From Acidobacteriota bacterium (GTDB lineage: Bacteria; Acidobacteriota; Polarisedimenticolia; Gp22-AA2), in NCBI GenBank assembly GCA_018606725.1, contig JAGYID010000012.1, positions 1 through 41,396 of the forward strand: a stretch of DNA of 41,396 nt, given 5' to 3'. Both the position numbers and the translations under genes were made by a program. Shown here piece by piece: positions 1 to 22,683 of the stretch (positions are counted from its first letter, which is position 1; each line of letters begins with the position of its first letter). Below the pieces are notes generated by a model that searched no databases, was not told the origin of the DNA, and worked only from the letters and a program-made list of their open reading frames with translations.

Positions 1-246
1 CCCGCCGCTTCGGCCTGGGTCGTGCAGGCGATGGCGACCACCGAGGTCGCGGCGGCGCGCCGCCTGCGCGATCGGCTCGGGCGGGCCGGTCTGCCGGCCA
101 CCATCGTCGAGGAGCGGCAGGCGAATCGCGTCGCCTACCGGGTGCGCGTCGGCCGTTACCGGGAGCGGCCGGTTGCCGAGGTGATGGCCAAGCGGCTGCG
201 CGAGGAGTTCGGCCTCAACCCCTGGATCCTGCCGGACGGCGACTGA
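1..246 (+). CDS. SPOR-domain protein, C-terminal part (gene begins before the window)
   Basis: The frame is open from base 1 and ends at TGA 244-246, so only about the last 81 residues are present. They read as one SPOR (sporulation-related repeat) domain: the opening strand WVVQAMA, a helix rich in Arg/Ala, the central YRVRVGRY strand, and a final helix before NPWIL. SPOR domains bind denuded peptidoglycan glycans, often at the division septum, and usually sit at the C-terminus of a membrane-anchored or secreted protein. The N-terminal part that would show the anchor is outside the window. The stop lies one base before the GTG of the next gene, so the two are probably cotranscribed. The domain call is good; the full protein cannot be named. 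Confidence 0.75.
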   Translation, partial: PAASAWVVQAMATTEVAAARRLRDRLGRAGLPATIVEERQANRVAYRVRVGRYRERPVAEVMAKRLREEFGLNPWILPDGD

Positions 247-247
247 C

Positions 248-1954
248 GTGCCGGAAACGACTGCACCGCGCGATCGCCGCCTCCTTGGCGAGTTGCTGCT
301 CGAAGCGGGCCTGGTATCGCGGCAGGGCTTGAAGGCAGGACTGGCGGAGCAGCGACAGCGTGGCGGTCGGCTCGGATTCAATCTGATGCGGCTCGGCTCG
401 GTCACGCCGGCCGAATTTCACCTCTATCTTCAAGAGAGTCTCGAGGCGCTGGGGCCCGGGCTCGAGGCCCCGTTGCGGGGGTCGCCGCCCGTCGACTTGA
501 TCCCGGCACGCGTGGCGCATCATTACGGCATCCTGCCGCTGGAAGCGGGTGACGGCGTCCTGACCCTGGCGCTGGCGTCCGCCGACGCGCCGCGCCTGCT
601 CCCCGCCGTGGAGGAATTGACGGGATTGCGCGTCGATCCGGTCATCTGGCCGCCCGCCGCGATCGCGGCGGCGCTGGCGCGCTTCTACCCCCCCGAGGTC
701 GAGCCCGGTGTGATCCATCGGCCGGCGGGGGACAACCTGCTCGTCCTCTCGGACCGGCGTCGCGGCATCCGGCCGATGCTGCCCGAGATGCTTCGCCGGG
801 ACGCACCGGCGGTCGACTGGCTGCGATCGATCCTGTCGGAGGCGGTGCGCCGATCGGCGCGCCGCGTCGCCCTGGAGCGCCGGCCGGGCGGGCCGCGCGT
901 CACGCTACGGCGCGATCGCGAACCGGGGCAGGACCTCGTGGTGCCTGCGGGCGCCGTCCCGGGCGTCGCCGCGCTGATCGAAACCCTGGCCCGTCTTGGA
1001 AACCGCGGTCGGGTCGTGCCGCGCGAGGGTCGCTTCGCCGCCGACATCGAAACCCGGCGGGTCCGCGTCACAGCTTCCGCGCTGCCGGCCCTGGCGGGGG
1101 AGTCGTACGAGCTGCACCTGTGCGACCAGCGCGTCGTTCAGCCGGAACGTGGTGAGGTGGCGGCCGACGTCCCGGCGCTCGCGGCCCGGATCGATCAGCT
1201 CGCGGAGGAGCGCCGCGGTCTGCTGGTGGTCGCCGGAGCGGACCGGAGCGACATCGACGCCGGCCTGGAGGCGGTGGCGGCGCTCCTCGCCGGGCGGCTG
1301 CGCGGCGTCGTCCTGGGCGCTCCGACGGCCCCGGTCGGCTGGGATCTCCCGAGGGTCGCGGAGCAGGAGGAGATCCCCCTCGCGGCGCGGCTCGAGCGCG
1401 CCCTCGGAACGCTGCCCGAGCTGCTCGTCCTGCACGATCTACTGTCGGCCGAGGCCGCGCAGATGGCGCGCGCCCAGGCCACCGAGCGGGTGGTCCTCGC
1501 CCCGGTCGCGGCGGCCGACGCGTTCGCCGCCGCCGAGGCCCTGGCACGCGGCGGGCGGTTGGCGGACCAGGACGCAGCGGCGCTGGCCGAGGGGATCCTC
1601 GGGGTCCGGCTGATGGAACCGCTCTGCCCGTCATGCCGGAGGCCCTGCGACGTTGCCGATCTGCTGGCGCGCGCGCCGTGGAGGCCGCACCCTCACGACG
1701 GTGAGTACGCCGTGTCCTCGGGCTGCCGCGGCTGTCGCGGCACGACGGCACCGGCGCTGTTGCCGGTGTACGAGTTCCTGGCCGCGGAGCCGGGCGAGCG
1801 GCTGTTCCGGCCGGGCACCTCGGCCGCGGCGCTGCGCGCCGGCCGGCTCCGGAAGGGGATGAAGACGCTGTTCGTCGCCGGCCTGGAGAAGGCGGCGGCC
1901 GGACTCATCGACGTCCGCGAGCCGCTGCGCCTGCTCCTGCACGAGCAGTGCTGA
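248..1954 (+). CDS. PilB/GspE-like protein with MshEN domain and dead ATPase domain
   Basis: 568 residues, GTG start. Residues about 10-150 look like an MshEN (GspE N-terminal) domain with two RLGxxL-type motifs (LLGELL near residue 12 and RLGFNL near residue 34); MshEN domains of this type bind cyclic di-GMP in MshE and PilB. The rest follows the GspE/PilB ATPase fold to its end, including the zinc-binding cysteines C460, C463, C493 and C496. The nucleotide site is gone: the Walker A position reads GADRSDID (residues 330-337) with Ile where the Lys should be, and the Asp box, Walker B and His box are not recognisable. It should therefore not hydrolyse ATP. The frame is intact and GC-typical, so it looks like a conserved pseudo-ATPase rather than a decaying gene. 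It overlaps lnt by 7 bases. A regulatory or structural role in pilus or secretion machinery is inference. Confidence 0.75.
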   Translation: MPETTAPRDRRLLGELLLEAGLVSRQGLKAGLAEQRQRGGRLGFNLMRLGSVTPAEFHLYLQESLEALGPGLEAPLRGSPPVDLIPARVAHHYGILPLEAGDGVLTLALASADAPRLLPAVEELTGLRVDPVIWPPAAIAAALARFYPPEVEPGVIHRPAGDNLLVLSDRRRGIRPMLPEMLRRDAPAVDWLRSILSEAVRRSARRVALERRPGGPRVTLRRDREPGQDLVVPAGAVPGVAALIETLARLGNRGRVVPREGRFAADIETRRVRVTASALPALAGESYELHLCDQRVVQPERGEVAADVPALAARIDQLAEERRGLLVVAGADRSDIDAGLEAVAALLAGRLRGVVLGAPTAPVGWDLPRVAEQEEIPLAARLERALGTLPELLVLHDLLSAEAAQMARAQATERVVLAPVAAADAFAAAEALARGGRLADQDAAALAEGILGVRLMEPLCPSCRRPCDVADLLARAPWRPHPHDGEYAVSSGCRGCRGTTAPALLPVYEFLAAEPGERLFRPGTSAAALRAGRLRKGMKTLFVAGLEKAAAGLIDVREPLRLLLHEQC

Positions 1955-3570
1955 GCGTCCTCGTTCGAGTGGCCGGACGACGCGCCGGTCCGCTGACCGC
2001 GCGCCGGGCGATCCTGTGTTCGGCCGGCTCCGGCCTCCTCCTCGCCCTGGCGTACCCGCGCTCCGACCTGTTCCTGCTGGCCTTCGTGGCGTTGGTGCCC
2101 CTCCTGATGTCGCTGGAGGGCGCCAGCCGCGGCCGCGCTCTCGCCTGCGGCTATGCCTGCGGTGCGGTGTTCTTCGGTGCGCTCCTCTACTGGGTCGCGC
2201 CGGTGATGAGCCGGTACGGCGGGCTGTCGCGCCCGCTGGCGTTGTTGTTCCTGGCGCTCCTGGTCTTCTACCTGGCGTCGTACGTGGCGGTATTCGCCGC
2301 CTTCCTCGCCTGGTCCTGGCGGCGCGTCGGCCCGCTGAGCCTGCTGGTGTGCCCGGTGGCATGGGTGGCGCTGGAGATCCTGCGCGGCCGGATGCTGACC
2401 GGTTTCCCGTGGGGCCTCCTCGGCTACTCGCAGGTTCCCAATCTGCCGCTGCTGCAGGCGGCGGCCTTCGGCGGCATCTATGCCGTGTCGCTCCTGGTCA
2501 TGGCGGCCAACGCCGGCCTCGCCCTCCTCGCAATCCGCCCCGCGCCGCGTCTCGGACGGCCGCTCGGCATCGGCCTGCTCCTCCTGGTCGCCGCGGTCGA
2601 GATCGCCGGTGCGCTGGTCCTGCAGGGCGCCCCCGCCGTGCCCCGGGAGAGCGTGCGCGTGGCGGCGCTGCAGCCGAACGTGGCGCAGGATCGGAAATGG
2701 CGGCCGAACGAGACCGGCCGGATCCTCGCCGACCTCGTCCGGATGACGCGCGCGGCGGCGGCGGCCGGCGCCAAGGTGGTCGTCTGGCCGGAATCCTCGA
2801 GTCCGCTGTCGATCCGCCGGCCGGACCTGGGCGTCGGCGCCGGCTCACGGCCGGCCGTCCAGCCCGACGACGCGTACGTCGCGCTCCTCTCGGGCCTGGC
2901 GCGCGAGCTCGACATCTCTCTCATCGTCGGCAGCGTCGACTACCGCTCCGCGGCGGGGGGGCTGCGGGCGTACAACAGCGCCGTGCCCGTGCTGCCGGAC
3001 GGGACGTTGGGCGCGCCATACGACAAAGTGCATCTGGTGCCGTTCGGTGAATACGTGCCGCTGGCGCACCTGTTGTTCTTCGTCAACCGGATGGTCGGCG
3101 GGGCGATCGCCGAGTTCGCCCCCGGCACGAGCTTCGCGCCCCTGCCGACCGGAGCAGGGGAGGCGGCCACCTTCGTCTGCTACGAGGCGATCTTCCCTGA
3201 GCTGGTGCGCCGGCTGGCGGGGCAGGGCGGCGTCTTCATGGTGAATCTGACCAATGATGCCTGGTTCGGCCGGTCCCCGGCGGCCGCCCAGCACTTCGCC
3301 ATGGCGGTGGCCCGGACGGCGGAGAACCGGCGCAGCCTGGTGCGCGCCGCCAACACCGGAATCTCCGCCCTTGTCGATCCTTACGGCCGCGTCCTGTCGC
3401 AGAGCGGCCTCCTGACCCAGGCGACCGTCGTCGGGACGCTGCCGGTGCGGCGCGATGCGACCCCCTACGCCCGCGCCGGCGATTGGCTGGCGTGGGGCTG
3501 TGTTATACTCGCGGCGTTTTACGCCGCCGCGCTCCGCGCGGCGTTCGCGCGTCCGGGAAGCGGATCCTGA
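1948..3570 (+). CDS. lnt: Apolipoprotein N-acyltransferase
   Basis: 540 residues, GTG start overlapping the previous stop. Lnt adds the third, amide-linked acyl chain to the N-terminal Cys of lipoproteins in the inner membrane, a step typical of diderm bacteria. The N-terminal 230 residues contain multiple hydrophobic segments, followed by a nitrilase-type (CN-hydrolase) domain from about residue 236. The catalytic Glu-Lys-Cys triad is visible: E282 in VVWPES, K360 in YDKVHLVPFGEY and C411 in FVCYEA; the family motif NLTNDAWFG follows. A last hydrophobic segment near the C-terminus matches the final membrane helix of the family. Length is close to the usual 500-540. prfB follows directly, and a possible prfB promoter lies inside the lnt 3' end. 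Confidence 0.95.
   Translation: MLSVLVRVAGRRAGPLTARRAILCSAGSGLLLALAYPRSDLFLLAFVALVPLLMSLEGASRGRALACGYACGAVFFGALLYWVAPVMSRYGGLSRPLALLFLALLVFYLASYVAVFAAFLAWSWRRVGPLSLLVCPVAWVALEILRGRMLTGFPWGLLGYSQVPNLPLLQAAAFGGIYAVSLLVMAANAGLALLAIRPAPRLGRPLGIGLLLLVAAVEIAGALVLQGAPAVPRESVRVAALQPNVAQDRKWRPNETGRILADLVRMTRAAAAAGAKVVVWPESSSPLSIRRPDLGVGAGSRPAVQPDDAYVALLSGLARELDISLIVGSVDYRSAAGGLRAYNSAVPVLPDGTLGAPYDKVHLVPFGEYVPLAHLLFFVNRMVGGAIAEFAPGTSFAPLPTGAGEAATFVCYEAIFPELVRRLAGQGGVFMVNLTNDAWFGRSPAAAQHFAMAVARTAENRRSLVRAANTGISALVDPYGRVLSQSGLLTQATVVGTLPVRRDATPYARAGDWLAWGCVILAAFYAAALRAAFARPGSGS
3504..3527 (+). promoter_or_regulatory. Possible prfB promoter -10 and adjacent hairpin
   Basis: Inside the 3' end of lnt there is a TATACT hexamer (3504-3509), about 80 bases before the prfB ATG. 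A -35 partner is weak (TTGGCT at 3483, 15-base spacer). Directly after it is a perfect 6-bp inverted repeat, GCGGCG (3511-3516) and CGCCGC (3522-3527), with a TTTTA loop. If transcription starts near 3516 the repeat would lie at the very 5' end of the mRNA. Both signals sit in coding sequence, so chance is a real possibility. Confidence 0.35.
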
Positions 3571-11808: not shown

Positions 11809-13023
11809 TTGCACGTCAATGACTTGCTGAAGATCGCCACCGAGAGGAAGGCGTCCGACCTGCACTTGAAGGTCGGATCGCACCCGGTTCTCCGCGTCAA
11901 CGGGCGGTTGACCCCTCTGAGCGAGCTGAACCGGATGTCGCAGGAAGACACCATCGCCATGGCGTTCAGCATCATGAGCGGGCGACAGAAGCAGAAATTC
12001 AAGGATCACTTCGAGATCGACCTGGCCTATTCGGTCCCCGGCCTCGGCCGCTTCCGCGTCAACGTGTTCCAGCAGCGCGGCACCGTAGGCCTGGTGCTGC
12101 GCGTCATCCCGGCGAAGATCCTCACCATCGAGGAGCTGCTGCTGCCGCCGGTCATGAAGACCATCGCCGACGAGCGCCGCGGGCTGATCCTGGTGACCGG
12201 GACGACCGGATCCGGAAAATCGACCTGTCTCGCCGCCATGGTCGACTACATCAACCAGCAGCGGACCGAGCACGTCATGACCATCGAGGACCCGATCGAG
12301 TTCCTGCACCGGGACAAGAAGAGCCTGGTGAACCAGCGCGAGGTGGAGGTCGACACCAAGTCGTTCGCCACCGCCCTGCGCTCGGCCCTGCGCCAGGATC
12401 CGGACGTCATCCTGGTCGGCGAGATGCGCGACTACGAGACCATCGAGACGGCTCTGACCGCCGCCGAGACCGGTCACCTGGTGTTCTCGACCCTGCACAC
12501 CCTCGACGCCACCGAGACCATCAACCGCGTCATCTCGGTGTTCCCACCGCACCAGCAGAAGCAGATCCGCCTGCAGCTGGCCAGCGTCCTCAAGGCGGTC
12601 ATCTCGATGCGCCTGCTGCCGCGCGCCGACGGCAACGGCCGCGTGCCGGCGGTGGAAGTGCTGCGCACGACCAACTTCATCCGCGACTGCATCGAGAACA
12701 AGGACAAGACCAAGATGATCCACGAGGCGATCGCGCAAGGGACGTCGCAGTACGGCATGCAGACCTTCGACCAGTCGATCTACCAGCTCTTCCGCAAGGA
12801 GCTGATCACCATGGAAGAGGCGCTGCGCCGCGCCAGCAACCCGGACGAGTTCAAGCTCAAGCTGCAGGGGATCGAATCGACCGCGGACGTCGCCCAGAGG
12901 GAGATGGAGAGCACACTCAAGGGCGGCTTCGAGAACGCCTCCGGCAATCAGGCGGCCGGCGGCGGCAGTTCGGTCTTCGATCTCTCGCGCGCCCACGGCG
13001 CCGGCGGCGTGCGGAAGAAATAG
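11809..13023 (+). CDS. pilT: Type IV pilus retraction ATPase, PilT/PilU family
   Basis: PilT-family hexamers power pilus retraction at the inner membrane. The protein has 404 residues from a TTG start with a strong GGGGAGGA site. It has an N-terminal PAS-like domain with the ASDLHLKVG signature, Walker A GTTGSGKS (residues 131-138), the Asp box TIEDPIEF, Walker B with RQDPDVILVGEMRD, and the His box TGHLVFSTLHT. PilT proteins usually have 340-380 residues; the extra length is a Gly/Ser-rich tail. The C-terminal region reads YGMQTFDQ, closer to PilU than to classic PilT, so it could be the accessory retraction ATPase. No other pilus structural gene is adjacent. Confidence 0.9.
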   Translation: MHVNDLLKIATERKASDLHLKVGSHPVLRVNGRLTPLSELNRMSQEDTIAMAFSIMSGRQKQKFKDHFEIDLAYSVPGLGRFRVNVFQQRGTVGLVLRVIPAKILTIEELLLPPVMKTIADERRGLILVTGTTGSGKSTCLAAMVDYINQQRTEHVMTIEDPIEFLHRDKKSLVNQREVEVDTKSFATALRSALRQDPDVILVGEMRDYETIETALTAAETGHLVFSTLHTLDATETINRVISVFPPHQQKQIRLQLASVLKAVISMRLLPRADGNGRVPAVEVLRTTNFIRDCIENKDKTKMIHEAIAQGTSQYGMQTFDQSIYQLFRKELITMEEALRRASNPDEFKLKLQGIESTADVAQREMESTLKGGFENASGNQAAGGGSSVFDLSRAHGAGGVRKK

Positions 13024-16697: not shown

Positions 16698-17741
16698 GTG
16701 GCCTCGCAGGACGAACGACGCGAGCGGTTCCGCGCCGTCCCCAAGGCGGAGATCCACCTGCATCTCGAGGGGTCGATCGCGATCGACACCCTGCTGCGGA
16801 TCGTGCAGCGCCGGGGTCCCCTGGCCGGGGGCGCCGAGGCGGCGCGCCAGCGCCTGGCCGGCCTCTACCGCCATCGCGATTTCCCCGACTTCCTGAGCAA
16901 CTTCCGAGAGCTGTGCTCGCTCTTGAGATCGCCGGAGGATTTCGCGCTGGCGACGACGGCGCTGTGCGATCAACTGGCCGCCGACGGCGTCCGCTACGCC
17001 GAGGTGCTCTGCTCGCCGCAGATCTTCGCCCGGCTGAGCGGCCTGCCGCCGGCGGAGGTACTCGCGGCGATCAGCGCCGAAGCGCGGTCGCGGGCGGCGG
17101 CCGGCGGACCACGCCTGCGATTCCTCCTGGATGGTGTGCGGCAGTTCGGCGTCGGCGGGCTCGAGGAGCTGGTCGATATCGCCACCGAAGCCCGCCGCTT
17201 CGACGTGATCGGCATCGGCGTGGGCGGTGACGAGAGCGCCATGCCGACCGCGGCGTTCGCGCCGGTATACCGGGAGGCGCGGCGACGCGGTCTGCGCGCC
17301 ACCGTGCACGCCGGCGAGTTCGTCGGACCGCGCTCGGTCTGGGAGGCTCTGGAGATCCTTGAAGCCGAGCGGATCGGCCACGGCGTGCGGGCGCACGAGG
17401 ATGCCGTGCTGGTGCGCGCCCTGGCGCGCGCCCGGGTCCCGCTGGAGTGCTGCCCGACGAGCAACATCCGCACCGGCGTGGTCAGCGACTGGCGGTCCCA
17501 TCCGCTGCGCGCCCTGCATGACGCCGGCGTGGAGGTGACCGTCAACAGCGACGATCCGGCGATGTTCGGGTCGACGGTGGCCGAGGAGTGGGAGGTGCTC
17601 GTCGAGCGACTGGGGTTCAGCGAGCGCGAGGCGCTGGAAATCGGCGTCCGCACGGTCCGTGCGTCGTTCATGCCCGACCAGGACAAGCTCGCGCTGGTCG
17701 GCGAGATGCGCCTCGCCGCGACGCGGGCCGGGATCGCATGA
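16698..17741 (+). CDS. add: Adenosine deaminase family hydrolase
   Basis: Zinc-dependent amidohydrolase of 347 residues. GTG 16698 has GGAGGGGA at good spacing; longer upstream starts run through unrelated sequence. Metal and catalytic motifs are complete: H20 and H22 in KAEIHLHLEGS, VHAGE, ERIGHG, CPTSNI and NSDDPAMFG. The last motif reads SDDP, as in several bacterial adenosine deaminases, adenine deaminases and aminodeoxyfutalosine deaminases, rather than the TDDP of E. coli Add. The substrate is therefore adenosine most probably, with aminodeoxyfutalosine (menaquinone futalosine route) a serious alternative; no mqn gene is nearby to decide. Its stop overlaps the start of the glycosyltransferase (ATGA). 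Confidence 0.8.
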   Translation: MASQDERRERFRAVPKAEIHLHLEGSIAIDTLLRIVQRRGPLAGGAEAARQRLAGLYRHRDFPDFLSNFRELCSLLRSPEDFALATTALCDQLAADGVRYAEVLCSPQIFARLSGLPPAEVLAAISAEARSRAAAGGPRLRFLLDGVRQFGVGGLEELVDIATEARRFDVIGIGVGGDESAMPTAAFAPVYREARRRGLRATVHAGEFVGPRSVWEALEILEAERIGHGVRAHEDAVLVRALARARVPLECCPTSNIRTGVVSDWRSHPLRALHDAGVEVTVNSDDPAMFGSTVAEEWEVLVERLGFSEREALEIGVRTVRASFMPDQDKLALVGEMRLAATRAGIA

Positions 17742-19783
17742 GCGGCCGGCGCGCGGCGCTCCTGTGCGTGACGGTCCTCGCCGCCGCCGCGCTCATGCTC
17801 GGCTTCCTGTTTCGGCCGGCGGGCGGCCTGCGTGGGCGCTACGCCATCCTCGCCGCCAACGGCAGCGAGGTGATGGTCCACGAACGAATCGACCCGCGCA
17901 TCGATTTCCCGGTGCCGCAGCGGCTGGACGCCGCCTACATCTTTCATTGGGACCTGGCGCGGCAGGGCTTTCCGGCCGGCATGCCGGCCTATGTCATCCG
18001 CTGGACGGGTTTCCTCGATGTGCCGCGCGACGGCACCTACGGATTCGCCGTCGTGGCGGAGGGGGAGTGCCTCCTCCAGCTCGACGGCACGCCGTTGGCG
18101 ATCGATCCGGTCGCCCTGGCCGAGCGGCCGCTGCGCGCGGGATTGCACCCGATCGCGATCGAGTACCGTCTGCCGCAGGGAGAAGCGAAGCTCGTGCTGA
18201 AGTGGCGGCCGCCGGATGGCGCGATCAGCGTCATCCCGGGCAGCCAGCTGCTCCCGGATCCGGCAGTGGCGGCTCGCGGTCGCGCTCGCCGGGCGATCGG
18301 CTGGGGATTGCTGGCAGGGATGGCGGGGCTCGCCTTCGCGGCCCCGTGGTCGGCACGGCGCCGGCCGGATGGGCGGGCGGGACGACTGGTGCGGACCATC
18401 GCCGCCGAACGCCGGCGCATCGCGCTCGGGGCGATCCTCCTGCTGGCGGCGTTCCTGCGCTTCCACGACTACGCCCTCGTGCCGTTCCACCACGAGACCG
18501 CCGACGAGTACCAGCATGCCTGGGAGGGGTGGACGCTCCTGCATTGGGGGACTCCGGCCGCCTGGAGCACCTTCCCGAGCCGCTATCCGCCGGAGCAGGC
18601 GCGCGATTTCCAGTGGTTCGGCGATCGGTACGTGCTTGTGTGGCCGTACTTCGACCACCCGCCGCTGTTCTCGCTGCCGGTCGGGCTGCTGACCTCGTTG
18701 AAGACCTGGATCACCCAGGAGACGGCGCCGCCAATCGGCGGCGTCCGGTTCGATTTCCTGCTGAGCGCCTTGCCGGTCATGCGGATGACCCCGATCCTGT
18801 GCAGCCTCATCGGCGTGCTGCTGCTGGTCCGCGTCGCGAAGACATACGGCGCCTCCGAGGAGGCGGCGCTGCTCGCCGCGCTGGTCTACGCCACCCTGCC
18901 GATCATCGTGCTGTCGCACCGGCTGGTGAAGGGGGAGAGCCTGCTGGCGCTGCTGTTCATGGGGGCGATCCTGCTGGCGCAGCGCTGCGCCGAAACCGAC
19001 CGCCGGCGGGACGCACTGCTCCTCGGACTGTTGTGCGGCCTGTCGCTGTGGACCAAGGCGACCGGCGTGGCGGTGCCGGCGGTGGCGACGCTGATGCTGG
19101 TCTCACGGCGGCGCTGGCGCGCCGCCGGCGTGACGCTGGCGGTCACCGCCGGCTTCCTCCTCCTGTACCTGGCGTACGCCGCCGCCTTCGACTTCCGGAT
19201 CTTCCTCGGCGTTCTGCGATCCCAGGCGACCAGCAAGCTGGTCAGCCTCGAGGGTCTGTACGATCTCCTTGGCGGCAAGGTGGTCGCCAAGCTGTTCGGC
19301 CGCGGCTCCTACCTGTGGCTGCTGCTGTGCGCGGCCCTGGCGGGCCTTCGCCGCGAACGGGGCCTGCTCCTGCCGATGGCGGTGTACGCCCTCATCATCG
19401 CGGCGACCGCCGACAGCCGGGTGGTCTACGGCTGGTACAGGATCCCGCTCTACCCGTTTCTGTGCGTCGCCGCGGGCATCGCGCTGGAAGAGATGATCAG
19501 CGCCGCCGACCTGTACCGCACCTTGCCGTTTGCCATCACCGCGCTCGCCACCGGCCTGCTGTACGCGCTGCCGGAACCGATCGTCGACACCAAGCGGGCG
19601 GTCTACCTGTTCGGCCTGGTCGCCGTCGGCCCATTTCTGCTACGCCTGGCGCACGAGCGGCGCTGGACGCAGCGGCTGGCGCTGGGGACCACCCTGGCCC
19701 TGGTGGCGATCTGGCTGCTGACCAGCCTGGCGACGAACCTCAACCTGCTGGAAATCTACGCCGCCTCCCGCGGCACGCGCTGA
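17738..19783 (+). CDS. PA14-domain / GT-C membrane glycosyltransferase
   Basis: 681 residues, ATG overlapping the add stop. It starts with a membrane segment (about 8-25). Residues about 30-175 resemble a PA14-type beta-sandwich (YIFHWDLARQGF, FLDVPRDGTYGF, QLDGTPL, GLHPIAIEY, LVLKWRPPDG), a carbohydrate-binding or sensing fold normally exposed outside the cytoplasm. A second membrane helix follows, then a polytopic GT-C domain of the ArnT/PMT (GT39/GT83-like) type with the expected acidic pair D256-E257 in the first extracytoplasmic loop (HHETADEYQHAW) and about ten hydrophobic segments. Such enzymes transfer sugars from polyprenyl-phosphate donors to protein or lipid. The acceptor is unknown. 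The PA14 to GT-C fusion is unusual. Confidence 0.78.
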   Translation: MSGRRAALLCVTVLAAAALMLGFLFRPAGGLRGRYAILAANGSEVMVHERIDPRIDFPVPQRLDAAYIFHWDLARQGFPAGMPAYVIRWTGFLDVPRDGTYGFAVVAEGECLLQLDGTPLAIDPVALAERPLRAGLHPIAIEYRLPQGEAKLVLKWRPPDGAISVIPGSQLLPDPAVAARGRARRAIGWGLLAGMAGLAFAAPWSARRRPDGRAGRLVRTIAAERRRIALGAILLLAAFLRFHDYALVPFHHETADEYQHAWEGWTLLHWGTPAAWSTFPSRYPPEQARDFQWFGDRYVLVWPYFDHPPLFSLPVGLLTSLKTWITQETAPPIGGVRFDFLLSALPVMRMTPILCSLIGVLLLVRVAKTYGASEEAALLAALVYATLPIIVLSHRLVKGESLLALLFMGAILLAQRCAETDRRRDALLLGLLCGLSLWTKATGVAVPAVATLMLVSRRRWRAAGVTLAVTAGFLLLYLAYAAAFDFRIFLGVLRSQATSKLVSLEGLYDLLGGKVVAKLFGRGSYLWLLLCAALAGLRRERGLLLPMAVYALIIAATADSRVVYGWYRIPLYPFLCVAAGIALEEMISAADLYRTLPFAITALATGLLYALPEPIVDTKRAVYLFGLVAVGPFLLRLAHERRWTQRLALGTTLALVAIWLLTSLATNLNLLEIYAASRGTR

Positions 19784-19835
19784 TCGCCGGAGCGGACACG
19801 GTCGTGGGTGGCGTGCGATTGCGGCCGGGGATCAG
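19780..19835. repeat. Inverted repeat between convergent genes
   Basis: CTGATCGCCGG (19780-19790) and CCGGGGATCAG (19825-19835) pair at ten of eleven positions. Each arm includes the stop codon of one of the convergent genes (glycosyltransferase on +, phosphohexomutase on -). The 34-base loop and lack of a T-run argue against a normal intrinsic terminator, but a bidirectional stop or mRNA-end-protecting structure is possible. Confidence 0.35.
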
Positions 19836-21295
19836 CGGCCGGTGCGCTGGGGGTGCCACGCGCTCTCCGGGACGGGCCGCGCCCTGACGGAACGCGGCGC
19901 GGGCGCTGCCCCGGCCTGCCGGACGCGCTCCAGGCCGCCGCGGATCAGCCGGTCCAGAAGAGCGGGGGAGCCCGCCTCGCAATAAATCCGCAGCAGCGGC
20001 TCGGTACCGGAGGCGCGGAACAGGATCCAGCCGTCGTCGCCGAGCAGAAGCTTGGTGCCGTCGAGCGTAGCAACGCCGCGCACCGTCGCCCCGCCGAGCC
20101 GCGCCGGCGGATCGTCCTTGATGCGCGCCGCGGTGGCGCGCGCCCGCTCCATCGGCATCGACAGGTCGACGCGCCGGTAGACGTAGGCCCCGTACTCCTT
20201 CTCCATCGCCGCGATGTGCCGGCTCAGCCGTCCTCCGCCCGCCGCCAGCCTTTCCATGAGCAGGAGGCCGATCAGAATGCCGTCGCGCTCCGGCAGGAAC
20301 CGCTTGACGCCGATTCCGCCGCTCTCCTCGCCGCCGATCAGGATGTCCTGATCGAGCATCAGTCGGGCGATGTGCTTGAAACCGATCGGCAGGTCGAAGA
20401 ATGGCAGTCCGTGACGCCTGGCGATCCGCTCGGCCACCAGGGTGTTGGCGAACGTCCGGGCGATGCCGCCGCGCCAGCGGCGGTTGTCGATCAGATGCAG
20501 CGCCGTCAGGCCGAACACCTGGAACGGCGACAGGACGCGCCCTGTCTCGTCGCAGATCCCGACCCGGTCGGCGTCGCCATCGGTGGCGATGCCGATGTGG
20601 GCCCGGTGCTTCAGGACCGCGTCGCGCAATGGGCCGAGGAGTTCGGGGCGCGGCTCCGGCGCGGAGCCGCCGAACAGCACGTCCGGCTCGCTGCGAATCG
20701 TCGTCACCCGGCAGCGGCCCCGCCGGAGCAGCCCTTCCAGGATCCGGCCGCCCGTTCCGTGCATGCTGTCGACGACGACGCGCAGCGGGGCCCGGCGCAA
20801 GGCGTCGAGGTTCACCACCGACTGCAGACGGGGCACGTAGGCCGGCAGGAACGGATGACGCCGCTCGGGTGGCGGGCCGGGGCGCGGCGCGCGGCGGCCG
20901 ATGAGGGCTTCGAGCCTGGCGGTCATCTCCGGCGGCGCCGAGCCGCCGAAGGCCGCCTTGACCTTGAGGCCGTTCCACTGCGGCGGGTTGTGGCTGGCGG
21001 TGACGGCGATACCGAGCGGCGCACCCGACGCCACGACCTGGCACGACACCATCGGCGTGGTGGTGGGGGTCTCCGGCAGCAGAGTCTGGACGCCGTTCCC
21101 CTCCAGGACCCCGGCGACGGCGGCGGCGAAACGGCCGCTGAGAAAGCGCACGTCGTGGCCGATCGGCACCGGGGCGGGGGAGCCGCCCTCCTCGCGGATC
21201 AGGTCGGCGATCGCCTGGGCGACGACGCGGACGTTGTCGAAGGTGAAATCATCGGCGATGACCCCCCGCCAGCCGTCGGTTCCGAAGCGGATCAC
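19832..21295 (-). CDS. Phosphoglucomutase/phosphomannomutase family protein
   Basis: Alpha-D-phosphohexomutase of 487 residues that interconverts hexose 1- and 6-phosphates for envelope sugar synthesis. The four signature loops are present: phosphoserine loop TASHNPPQWNG, metal loop DGDADR, sugar-specificity loop GGEESGG and phosphate-binding loop FRASGTEP. GEESGG is compatible with phosphoglucomutase or dual PGM/PMM activity, so I give no symbol. Start GTG (complement of 21293-21295) gives MIRFGTDGWRG, the family N-terminus; upstream codons continue in frame but are unrelated. The ribosome-binding site is weak. It is the only - strand gene, divergent from pgsA by 127 bases. Confidence 0.9.
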   Translation of the reverse strand: MIRFGTDGWRGVIADDFTFDNVRVVAQAIADLIREEGGSPAPVPIGHDVRFLSGRFAAAVAGVLEGNGVQTLLPETPTTTPMVSCQVVASGAPLGIAVTASHNPPQWNGLKVKAAFGGSAPPEMTARLEALIGRRAPRPGPPPERRHPFLPAYVPRLQSVVNLDALRRAPLRVVVDSMHGTGGRILEGLLRRGRCRVTTIRSEPDVLFGGSAPEPRPELLGPLRDAVLKHRAHIGIATDGDADRVGICDETGRVLSPFQVFGLTALHLIDNRRWRGGIARTFANTLVAERIARRHGLPFFDLPIGFKHIARLMLDQDILIGGEESGGIGVKRFLPERDGILIGLLLMERLAAGGGRLSRHIAAMEKEYGAYVYRRVDLSMPMERARATAARIKDDPPARLGGATVRGVATLDGTKLLLGDDGWILFRASGTEPLLRIYCEAGSPALLDRLIRGGLERVRQAGAAPAPRSVRARPVPESAWHPQRTGR

Positions 21296-21307
21296 TGTCA
21301 GTCTCGG

Positions 21308-21336
21308 TTGACCGTCCTGCGCCCTTGTGTTAACTT
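21308..21336 (+). promoter_or_regulatory. Promoter of the pgsA phospholipid cluster
   Basis: TTGACC (21308-21313), a 17-base spacer and TAACTT (21331-21336), 86 bases before the pgsA ATG and beginning 12 bases from the start of the divergent mutase. The rest of the leader (21337-21422) shows no clear structure. Confidence 0.6.
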
Positions 21337-21422
21337 GCGACCGCCTCGCGCGACGCGCGGGCGCTGCGCGTGCGGAGGCGGCCTCGCGGCATTCTACACT
21401 CAGACCCTCAGCAGCCGACGGG

Positions 21423-22019
21423 ATGATCAACCTCCCGACGTGGATCACCATCATCCGGATCTTCCTGACGCCGGTGCTCGTTGCCGTCCTGCTCACGAAG
21501 ACCACCGGGCTCGAGCACCTGAATCTGTCCTGGCAGACCGTCGGGGTGATCATCTTCCTGGTCGCGGCGCTCACCGACTGGCTGGACGGCTGGCTGGCGC
21601 GCCGCCGCGACCAGGTCACCACGCTCGGCATCCTGCTCGACCCGATCGCCGACAAGCTCCTGACTTCGGCGGCGTTCATCTCCCTGGTGGAGATCGGTGC
21701 GGCCCGAGCCTGGATGGTGTGGGTGATCGTCGGCCGCGAGTTCGCCATCGACGGCCTGCGGATGATCGCCAGCAGCCAGGGGGTCACCATCGCGGCGAGC
21801 GCCTGGGGCAAGTACAAGACGATCACGCAGATCGTCGCCATCGTGTTGCTGATCCTGGGGAACCGGTACCTGGGCAAGTGGGATCTGGCCGGCGATCTGG
21901 CCCTGTGGGCGGTCGTGGTGCTGGCGATCTTCTCGGCCGCCGACTACTTCCTGAAATTCTCCCGCCGGCTCGGGGTGACCGGCGGCCCGGAGCCGGGGGC
22001 CGGGGCGGCGCGTGGCTAA
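21423..22019 (+). CDS. pgsA: CDP-diacylglycerol-glycerol-3-phosphate 3-phosphatidyltransferase
   Basis: PgsA makes phosphatidylglycerol phosphate, the committed step to phosphatidylglycerol and cardiolipin, in the inner membrane. It has 198 residues from ATG 21423; longer in-frame starts cross the promoter. The CDP-alcohol phosphotransferase signature DGx2ARx8Gx3Dx3D is fully present (DGWLAR, then G, then LLDPIAD). About five hydrophobic segments are seen. The start context is weak (GACGGG). Its stop lies inside the start of the next gene, which begins at GTG 22012. First gene of the phospholipid cluster. Confidence 0.93.
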   Translation: MINLPTWITIIRIFLTPVLVAVLLTKTTGLEHLNLSWQTVGVIIFLVAALTDWLDGWLARRRDQVTTLGILLDPIADKLLTSAAFISLVEIGAARAWMVWVIVGREFAIDGLRMIASSQGVTIAASAWGKYKTITQIVAIVLLILGNRYLGKWDLAGDLALWAVVVLAIFSAADYFLKFSRRLGVTGGPEPGAGAARG

Positions 22020-22683
22020 GCGGCGGCGGACGGACCGCACCTGGATCGGCCGGCTGCGACAGCGCTTCCTGACCGGGCTGGTGATCGTCCTGCCCATGGT
22101 GATCACGGTCTGGCTGCTCGGCATCCTGTTCCGGCTCGTTCACGGCATCTCCACGCCGACCATCCTCAAGATTCTGACGGCGTTCCGCGTACCGCTGGTC
22201 GACGACCCGGCGTTCGCCAACTACATGGCCCCCCTGATCGGCCTGCTGACGACGCTGGGGTTCATCCTGCTCATCGGCATCCTGGCGACCAATTTCCTCG
22301 GCCGGCAGTTCGTCGACGGCTTCGACCGGCTCATGCTGCGCATACCCCTGATCAAGGGGATTTACGGCGGCACTCGCCAGCTCCTGAACGCCTTCTCCAA
22401 GCCGACCAGCGAGTTCCAGCGGGTCGTCGCCATCGAATATCCCCGTCCGGGGGTCTACACCATCGGTTTCGTGACCAGGGAGAGCATCACCATGCGCGCG
22501 GCCGCGGATAAAGAGACGCCCGGTCTCACCCTGGTGTTCCTGCCGACGACCCCCAACCCGACCTCGGGCTGGCTGGCGGCGCTCCCGGAGGAGGACGTCA
22601 TCCCGCTCGACCTGACGATCGAAGACGGCGTCAAGCTGATCGTCAGCGGCGGCCTCGTCACCCCGGCCAACTGGGGGCGATGA
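22012..22683 (+). CDS. DUF502 family membrane protein
   Basis: 223 residues, GTG start overlapping pgsA by 8 bases. It contains two long hydrophobic segments (about 20-45 and 70-92) and then a conserved soluble part with IPLIKGIYGGTRQLLNAF, VVAIEYPRPGVYTIGFVT and VFLPTTPNPTSGW, which are the hallmarks of DUF502. The molecular role of the family is not known; plant members (COV, CONTINUOUS VASCULAR RING) affect vascular patterning and bacterial members often sit among envelope genes. Here it is translationally coupled with pgsA and followed by plsC, which suggests a membrane-related job. Confidence 0.88.
   Translation: MAKRRRTDRTWIGRLRQRFLTGLVIVLPMVITVWLLGILFRLVHGISTPTILKILTAFRVPLVDDPAFANYMAPLIGLLTTLGFILLIGILATNFLGRQFVDGFDRLMLRIPLIKGIYGGTRQLLNAFSKPTSEFQRVVAIEYPRPGVYTIGFVTRESITMRAAADKETPGLTLVFLPTTPNPTSGWLAALPEEDVIPLDLTIEDGVKLIVSGGLVTPANWGR

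Follow-up and report, generated by a model that had tools for sequence, protein, structure and literature searches.

A conserved, catalytically dead member of the PilB/GspE family with an MshEN domain in Acidobacteriota

The window analysed here (the whole stretch of 41,396 nucleotides, contig JAGYID010000012.1 of assembly GCA_018606725.1, from an Acidobacteriota bacterium) carries as its first full gene a PilB/GspE-like pseudo-ATPase gene, designated X. The start codon of X lies 1 nt past the stop codon of a SPOR-domain gene, which in orthologous loci is complete as a SPOR protein. Downstream lies lnt, and the synteny of X and lnt is conserved throughout the bacterial order to which the window belongs. 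The features are collected in Table 1.

Table 1. Gene X, its motifs and the adjoining genes in the window
Feature	Position	Strand	Basis and remarks
SPOR-domain envelope protein, 3' end	1..246	+	Pfam SPOR 8.6e-13; gene cut by contig start
Pseudo-ATPase gene X	248..1954	+	PilB/GspE-like, 568 aa, GTG start, frame intact
MshEN motif I, LLGELLLEAGLVSRQGLKAGLAEQ	281..352	+	10/11 consensus positions (PMC5013675); first Arg -> Leu
MshEN motif II, RLGFNLMRLGSVTPAEFHLYLQES	368..439	+	9/11 consensus positions (PMC5013675); last Gln -> Ser; after 5-residue spacer RQRGG
MshEN_C subdomain, residues 80-151	485..700	+	Pfam MshEN match; contains conserved Asp113
Degenerate Walker A, GADRSDID	1235..1258	+	Alignment to PilBs (PilB: GPTGSGKT)
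Degenerate Walker B, GTLPELLVLHDLLSAEAA	1406..1459	+	Alignment to PilBs; catalytic Glu -> Asp
Zinc-ligand pair C460/C463 (CPSC)	1625..1636	+	Invariant in 23-sequence alignment A2
Zinc-ligand pair C493/C496 (CRGC)	1724..1735	+	Invariant in 23-sequence alignment A2
C-terminal DVREPLRLLLHE	1910..1945	+	Alignment A1; nearly invariant within the order
lnt (apolipoprotein N-acyltransferase)	1948..3570	+	Pfam LNT_N + CN_hydrolase; overlaps or abuts X

Pfam matches to protein X comprised MshEN (9.7e-13; 48.4 bits against a curated cut-off of 23.1; residues 80-151) and T2SSE (PF00437; 2e-17; 63.4 bits against a curated cut-off of 24.9; residues 185-559). The NCBIfam c-di-GMP motif model NF053729 scored 43.6 against a cut-off of 38 and spanned residues 13-63. 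The PilB equivalog TIGR02538, a model of the working pilus motor, gave 71.5 bits, below its cut-off of 675.65. When X was compared with PDB sequences using phmmer, Thermus PilF (5.6e-31), Myxococcus PilB (2.6e-30) and Geobacter PilB (8e-30) were aligned over approximately the whole length. A sequence-only reading of the locus had described an intact frame with the full-length GspE/PilB architecture and four zinc cysteines; the frame was found to be uninterrupted, and the architecture was borne out by the two Pfam domains, by the phmmer alignments over the length of the protein and by the retained CPSC...CRGC cysteines. Structure prediction against GspE/PilB, which that reading had proposed as a check, likewise returned a PilB/GspE fold. 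AlphaFold models were obtained with a mean pLDDT of 76.5 (9 relatives) and 81.9 (23 relatives), and the top Foldseek match was Geobacter PilB (E 1.4e-21), followed by Thermus PilF and Vibrio GspE. TM-scores came to about 0.4 by query and at most 0.65 by target; these modest values probably reflect domain orientation.

The catalytic motifs were read from an alignment of X to PilBs of the phylum and to the PilB of the same genome. The P-loop Lys is Ile in X, the Walker B segment reads LHDLLS where PilB has VGEIRD, the Asp box (PilB TAEDPVEF) is unrecognisable and the His-box His is gone, all as the sequence-only reading had claimed. In an alignment of 24 dead sequences the catalytic Glu was missing from every one, the Asp box was lost and no P-loop (GxxGxGK[TS]) was intact. 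Walker A was unrecognisable throughout the window's order; a Lys was aligned at the P-loop only in two rows, both from family f16, and there lacked the glycines, while a distant member (G064) has GPDGSGRT at Walker A. The His-box His was lost in the window's order and survives only in families f14 and f39. The CxxC...CxxC zinc site (Cys4) was present in 24/24. Positions invariant in PilB were kept in X at 53% in MshEN, 22% in N2D, 28% in the core and 45% in the C-terminus. The evidence supports X as a member of the PilB/GspE superfamily that is catalytically dead.

The MshE consensus consists of two 24-residue motifs separated by a 5-residue spacer (PMC5013675). By number of matching positions the motifs of X are near this consensus, as had been noted from the sequence; across the family, however, two contact residues are absent, motif I having a hydrophobic residue in place of its first Arg and motif II having lost its last Gln. 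Except in f16, Gln35 and the Gly and Leu positions that contact guanine were largely retained, and Asp113 of X aligned with MshE Asp108, the position being inferred by alignment; an Asp is retained there in members from f1, f2, f14 and f39. The f2 members have in addition a Cys at motif II Gly3, and in the two f16 members the MshEN motifs are degraded to 6-7 and 5-6 of 11. Changes at MshE Arg9, Asp12 and Gln32 had at most five-fold effects (PMC5013675), statements that do not extend to Gln61, which is the last Gln of MshE motif II and forms two hydrogen bonds with the ligand. The GSPII-B domain of Thermus PilF, with Lys/Leu where the Arg residues would stand, still binds at 6 nM (PMC11731258), so the lost motif I Arg is not disqualifying for X; the lost motif II Gln leaves doubt as to whether c-di-GMP would be bound. 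The MshE change G40I, at motif II Gly3, abolished thermal stabilisation by the ligand (PMC5013675). Judged by the contacts retained and lost in each family, including the f2 Cys at Gly3, c-di-GMP binding would be plausible in f1, f14 and f39, more doubtful in f2 and unlikely in f16.

Orthologues were sought in 41 genomes of the class, the window's order being represented by its own genome and 11 others. X was found in all 12 genomes of the order, with 39-54% identity to the window copy where full length; matches were partial in G006, where the frame is split, and in G007 and G010, where the contigs end. Among the 41 genomes, those from the class's other families yielded no X, only PilB-type matches at about 25%. 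A scan of genome contigs with the single X sequence gave no match; the alignment query gave 7 loci. A profile of the order's alignment (A1) was then searched over 396 genomes of the phylum. The order's own full-length copies scored 825-903 bits, values that are high by construction, and a second tier at 296-380 bits comprised 15 further genomes (eight of f14, four of f39, two of f16 and one of f31). At or below 233 bits the matches were PilBs wherever the sequence was read, apart from a candidate X of family f46 (G099) that is also dead and scored 207 bits with A1 and 332 with A2. X was thereby located in 28 genomes, that of the window and at least 27 other Acidobacteriota, with five families beyond the order. 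The check by orthologue alignment that had been suggested earlier thus showed that orthologues exist, that all are dead, that the Cys4 site is kept and that MshEN is kept in all but f16.

A maximum-likelihood tree of 45 rows was built from 24 dead sequences, 19 PilBs, one GspE and one other pseudo-ATPase. The 24 dead sequences made up one side of a single branch (SH-aLRT 99.9). Long branches and uneven composition were flagged by the tree tool, so the branching order inside the dead clade is unsure. When estimated by NG86 on close pairs, in several of which synonymous sites are near saturation, dN/dS of X was 0.04-0.38 for the whole gene, 0.03-0.12 for the MshEN four-helix part (MshEN_N) and about 0.07-0.46 for the core; the strongest purifying selection was on MshEN_N. 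Mean pairwise identity among the order's X sequences was 67% in MshEN_N and 35% in the core, as against 65% and 90% for PilB of the class. This inverted constraint is the pattern expected if selection acts on the sensor-like end of X and not on the motor. Simple decay is ruled out by the purifying signal, and the set of orthologues, together with dN/dS well below 1, led us to reject X as a decaying gene. The presence of the same dead version in at least 27 other Acidobacteriota genomes suggests that X is a dedicated regulator and not a gene in decay.

At the loci of the window's order the genes run recN-coaD-aspC-nfeD-SPFH-GGDEF-SPOR-X-lnt-prfB-hrcA-grpE-dnaK-dnaJ, within the reach of each contig; neither nfeD nor SPFH was found in the locus of G003. 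In the order's contiguous loci the second gene upstream of X encodes a diguanylate cyclase (L041 6399-7427 and equivalents), with RxxD and GGDEF intact and a weakly GAF-like N-terminus. The window's genome has its cyclase at C187:15582-16601, near the contig end and after recN, coaD, aspC, nfeD and SPFH, so the window contig probably continues C187. The pairing breaks outside the order. In f3, f6, f7 and f11 of the same class a GGDEF-SPOR-lnt locus without X was found, the SPOR gene being matched only in some, and f4, f5 and f12 have SPOR-lnt with neither cyclase nor X. The f31 locus reads SPOR-X-lnt and the f16 locus nfeD-SPFH-SPOR-X; a cyclase was not seen at either. In f14 and f39 the genes near X include argS and one for an RlmL-type methyltransferase (named by reading and Pfam), with no adjoining cyclase. 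A dedicated cyclase-X pair as a general rule was therefore rejected, as was a gain of X in the window's order alone, since f16 and f31 also hold X after the SPOR gene. The cyclase is probably a source of ligand for X within the window's order and, given where the pairing breaks, not a universal partner. No pilus genes were present beside X in the loci read. In f39 (loci set L154, L157, L158 and L159, with f14) X is followed by genes for an NtrC-type response regulator and an SppA-like peptidase, and a DUF4388 gene lies upstream.

Among known systems, the best structural and sequence match of X is with the PilB/PilF pilus ATPases of Thermus, Geobacter and Myxococcus, with which it shares the order MshEN-N2D-ATPase core-Cys4, the predicted fold and the length. 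Unlike them, X is devoid of P-loop, catalytic Glu and Asp box, its constraint is inverted and it does not lie near pilus genes. The MshEN/GSPII receptors (V. cholerae MshE, Thermus GSPII-B) share with X the two 24-residue motifs, the 5-residue spacer, the Gly/Leu contacts and the Asp at the Asp108 position, whereas X has a hydrophobic residue at the motif I Arg, has lost the terminal Gln of motif II and carries a dead motor behind the domain. The XpsE/GspE type II secretion ATPases belong with X to one superfamily and fold, and XpsE, which powers type II secretion as an active motor, likewise has an altered MshEN. The XpsE sensor lost ligand binding (PMC5013675), and X is the reverse, with the sensor-like part kept and the motor dead. 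The FimX-type degenerate-enzyme c-di-GMP effectors of type IV pili exhibit the shared principle of an enzyme fold turned c-di-GMP sensor (PMC11656802), but their folds are different (GGDEF/EAL) and the likeness is one of analogy only. Other MshEN domains have already been described that are combined with different partners or no longer bind (PMC5013675); no description of a conserved, catalytically dead PilB/GspE branch was found among the open journal papers searched.

On balance X is probably a regulatory scaffold that descends from a PilB-like motor, a pseudo-ATPase responsive to c-di-GMP; the binding of this ligand, the partner and the direction in which X acts are all putative. Most simply, an ancestral PilB/GspE-type ATPase would have become unable to bind and hydrolyse ATP a single time, before the family spread in Acidobacteriota, and would have kept a two-part architecture in which a c-di-GMP-type MshEN sensor stands ahead of a zinc-stabilised dead motor body. 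Binding of c-di-GMP to the MshEN four-helix subdomain would change its packing against the body and so may switch the contacts of X with a partner in the inner membrane, which may be the platform of a pilus or secretion system or else the envelope proteins encoded alongside X. In the window's order the c-di-GMP would probably come from the GAF/GGDEF cyclase two genes upstream. More tentatively, the clade as a whole may be an ancient c-di-GMP-gated pseudo-motor lineage whose engine was lost a single time and which several Acidobacteriota families have maintained as a signal-dependent regulator of PilB/GspE machines or of the envelope.

A reading that overlaps with this one, and that had been raised from the sequence alone, has X joining the working PilB/GspE motor in a mixed hexamer or competing with it as a platform decoy, and so acting as a c-di-GMP-dependent throttle on pilus extension. 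The homology and fold of X agree with such a role, as does the presence of intact PilB, GspE and PilT in the same genome, with PilB also encoded by fellow members of the order. The few PilB-invariant positions kept in N2D (22%) and the core (28%) make it unlikely, however, that the usual hexamer interface is preserved, and together with the distance from pilus genes in the loci read they argue mildly against a normal mixed hexamer. Entry of X into a PilB hexamer is possible but not favoured, and we consider this specific role somewhat unlikely.

Slightly less probable is a constitutive structural or scaffold protein in which MshEN and the dead core are kept solely to contact other proteins, without any sensing of a ligand. 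Such a protein would accommodate the absence of an Arg and a Gln contact throughout the family and the retention of X at the same locus in f16 after the motif was lost, and in XpsE it has the precedent of an MshEN homologue without binding (PMC5013675). It accords poorly with the Gly/Leu contacts and Gln35 largely kept outside f16, with the Asp at the Asp108 position in f1, f2, f14 and f39, and with MshEN_N being among the most constrained parts of X.

Also unlikely, and a little more so, is that X is a c-di-GMP effector unrelated to pili that acts in the envelope or at the division site with the SPOR protein, Lnt and NfeD/SPFH, although this too overlaps with the regulatory pseudo-ATPase preferred here. 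The order SPOR-X-lnt in the window's order and f31, SPOR-X in f16 and the 1-nt gap in the window point to the envelope; the neighbourhood is nevertheless a mixed housekeeping cluster, and in f14 and f39 X is instead found close to argS and the rRNA methyltransferase gene.

Residual binding or slow hydrolysis of nucleotide through a rewired site would find its traces in the GPDGSGRT of G064 and the His-box His of f14 and f39, and is very improbable against a catalytic Glu absent in 24/24, a Walker A unrecognisable across the window's order and a core identity of 35%. A decaying pseudogene or annotation artefact, to which only the copy of G006 split over two reading frames (L044 8001-9585; a frameshift or an assembly error) lends itself, is hardly credible when every other copy of X that its contig spans has an unbroken frame, dN/dS is well below 1 and a single clade extends over several families.

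If X binds c-di-GMP, the sensor would be separated from the motor, and X would illustrate how the second messenger can work through this fold with no ATP hydrolysis. An intact PilB and a dead X in one genome offer a clean comparison for the effect of MshEN on the body behind it. Automatic annotation would probably label X as PilB or GspE, so that motors are overcounted.

A second, separate pseudo-ATPase of 732 aa is encoded in the same genome (L005 436-2634, contig C66), with MshEN and T2SSE, a P-loop reading GPPHNGVD and a Cys-rich N-terminus (CWSC...CPFCFQCF). Relatives at about 60% identity were found in 6/8 genomes of the family, the copy of G006 being in two pieces, and the P-loop was lost in all four relatives with an alignment covering it. 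Membership of this protein in the X clade was rejected: it fell on the PilB side of the 45-row tree, on a long branch whose placement is unsure. Elsewhere in the window, two long overlapping ORFs (742 and 754 aa) with no Pfam match at 1e-6 occupy 17659-22072 on the + strand, and a PilT-like ATPase gene with an intact P-loop (GTTGSGKS) lies at 11809-13023, away from other pilus genes.
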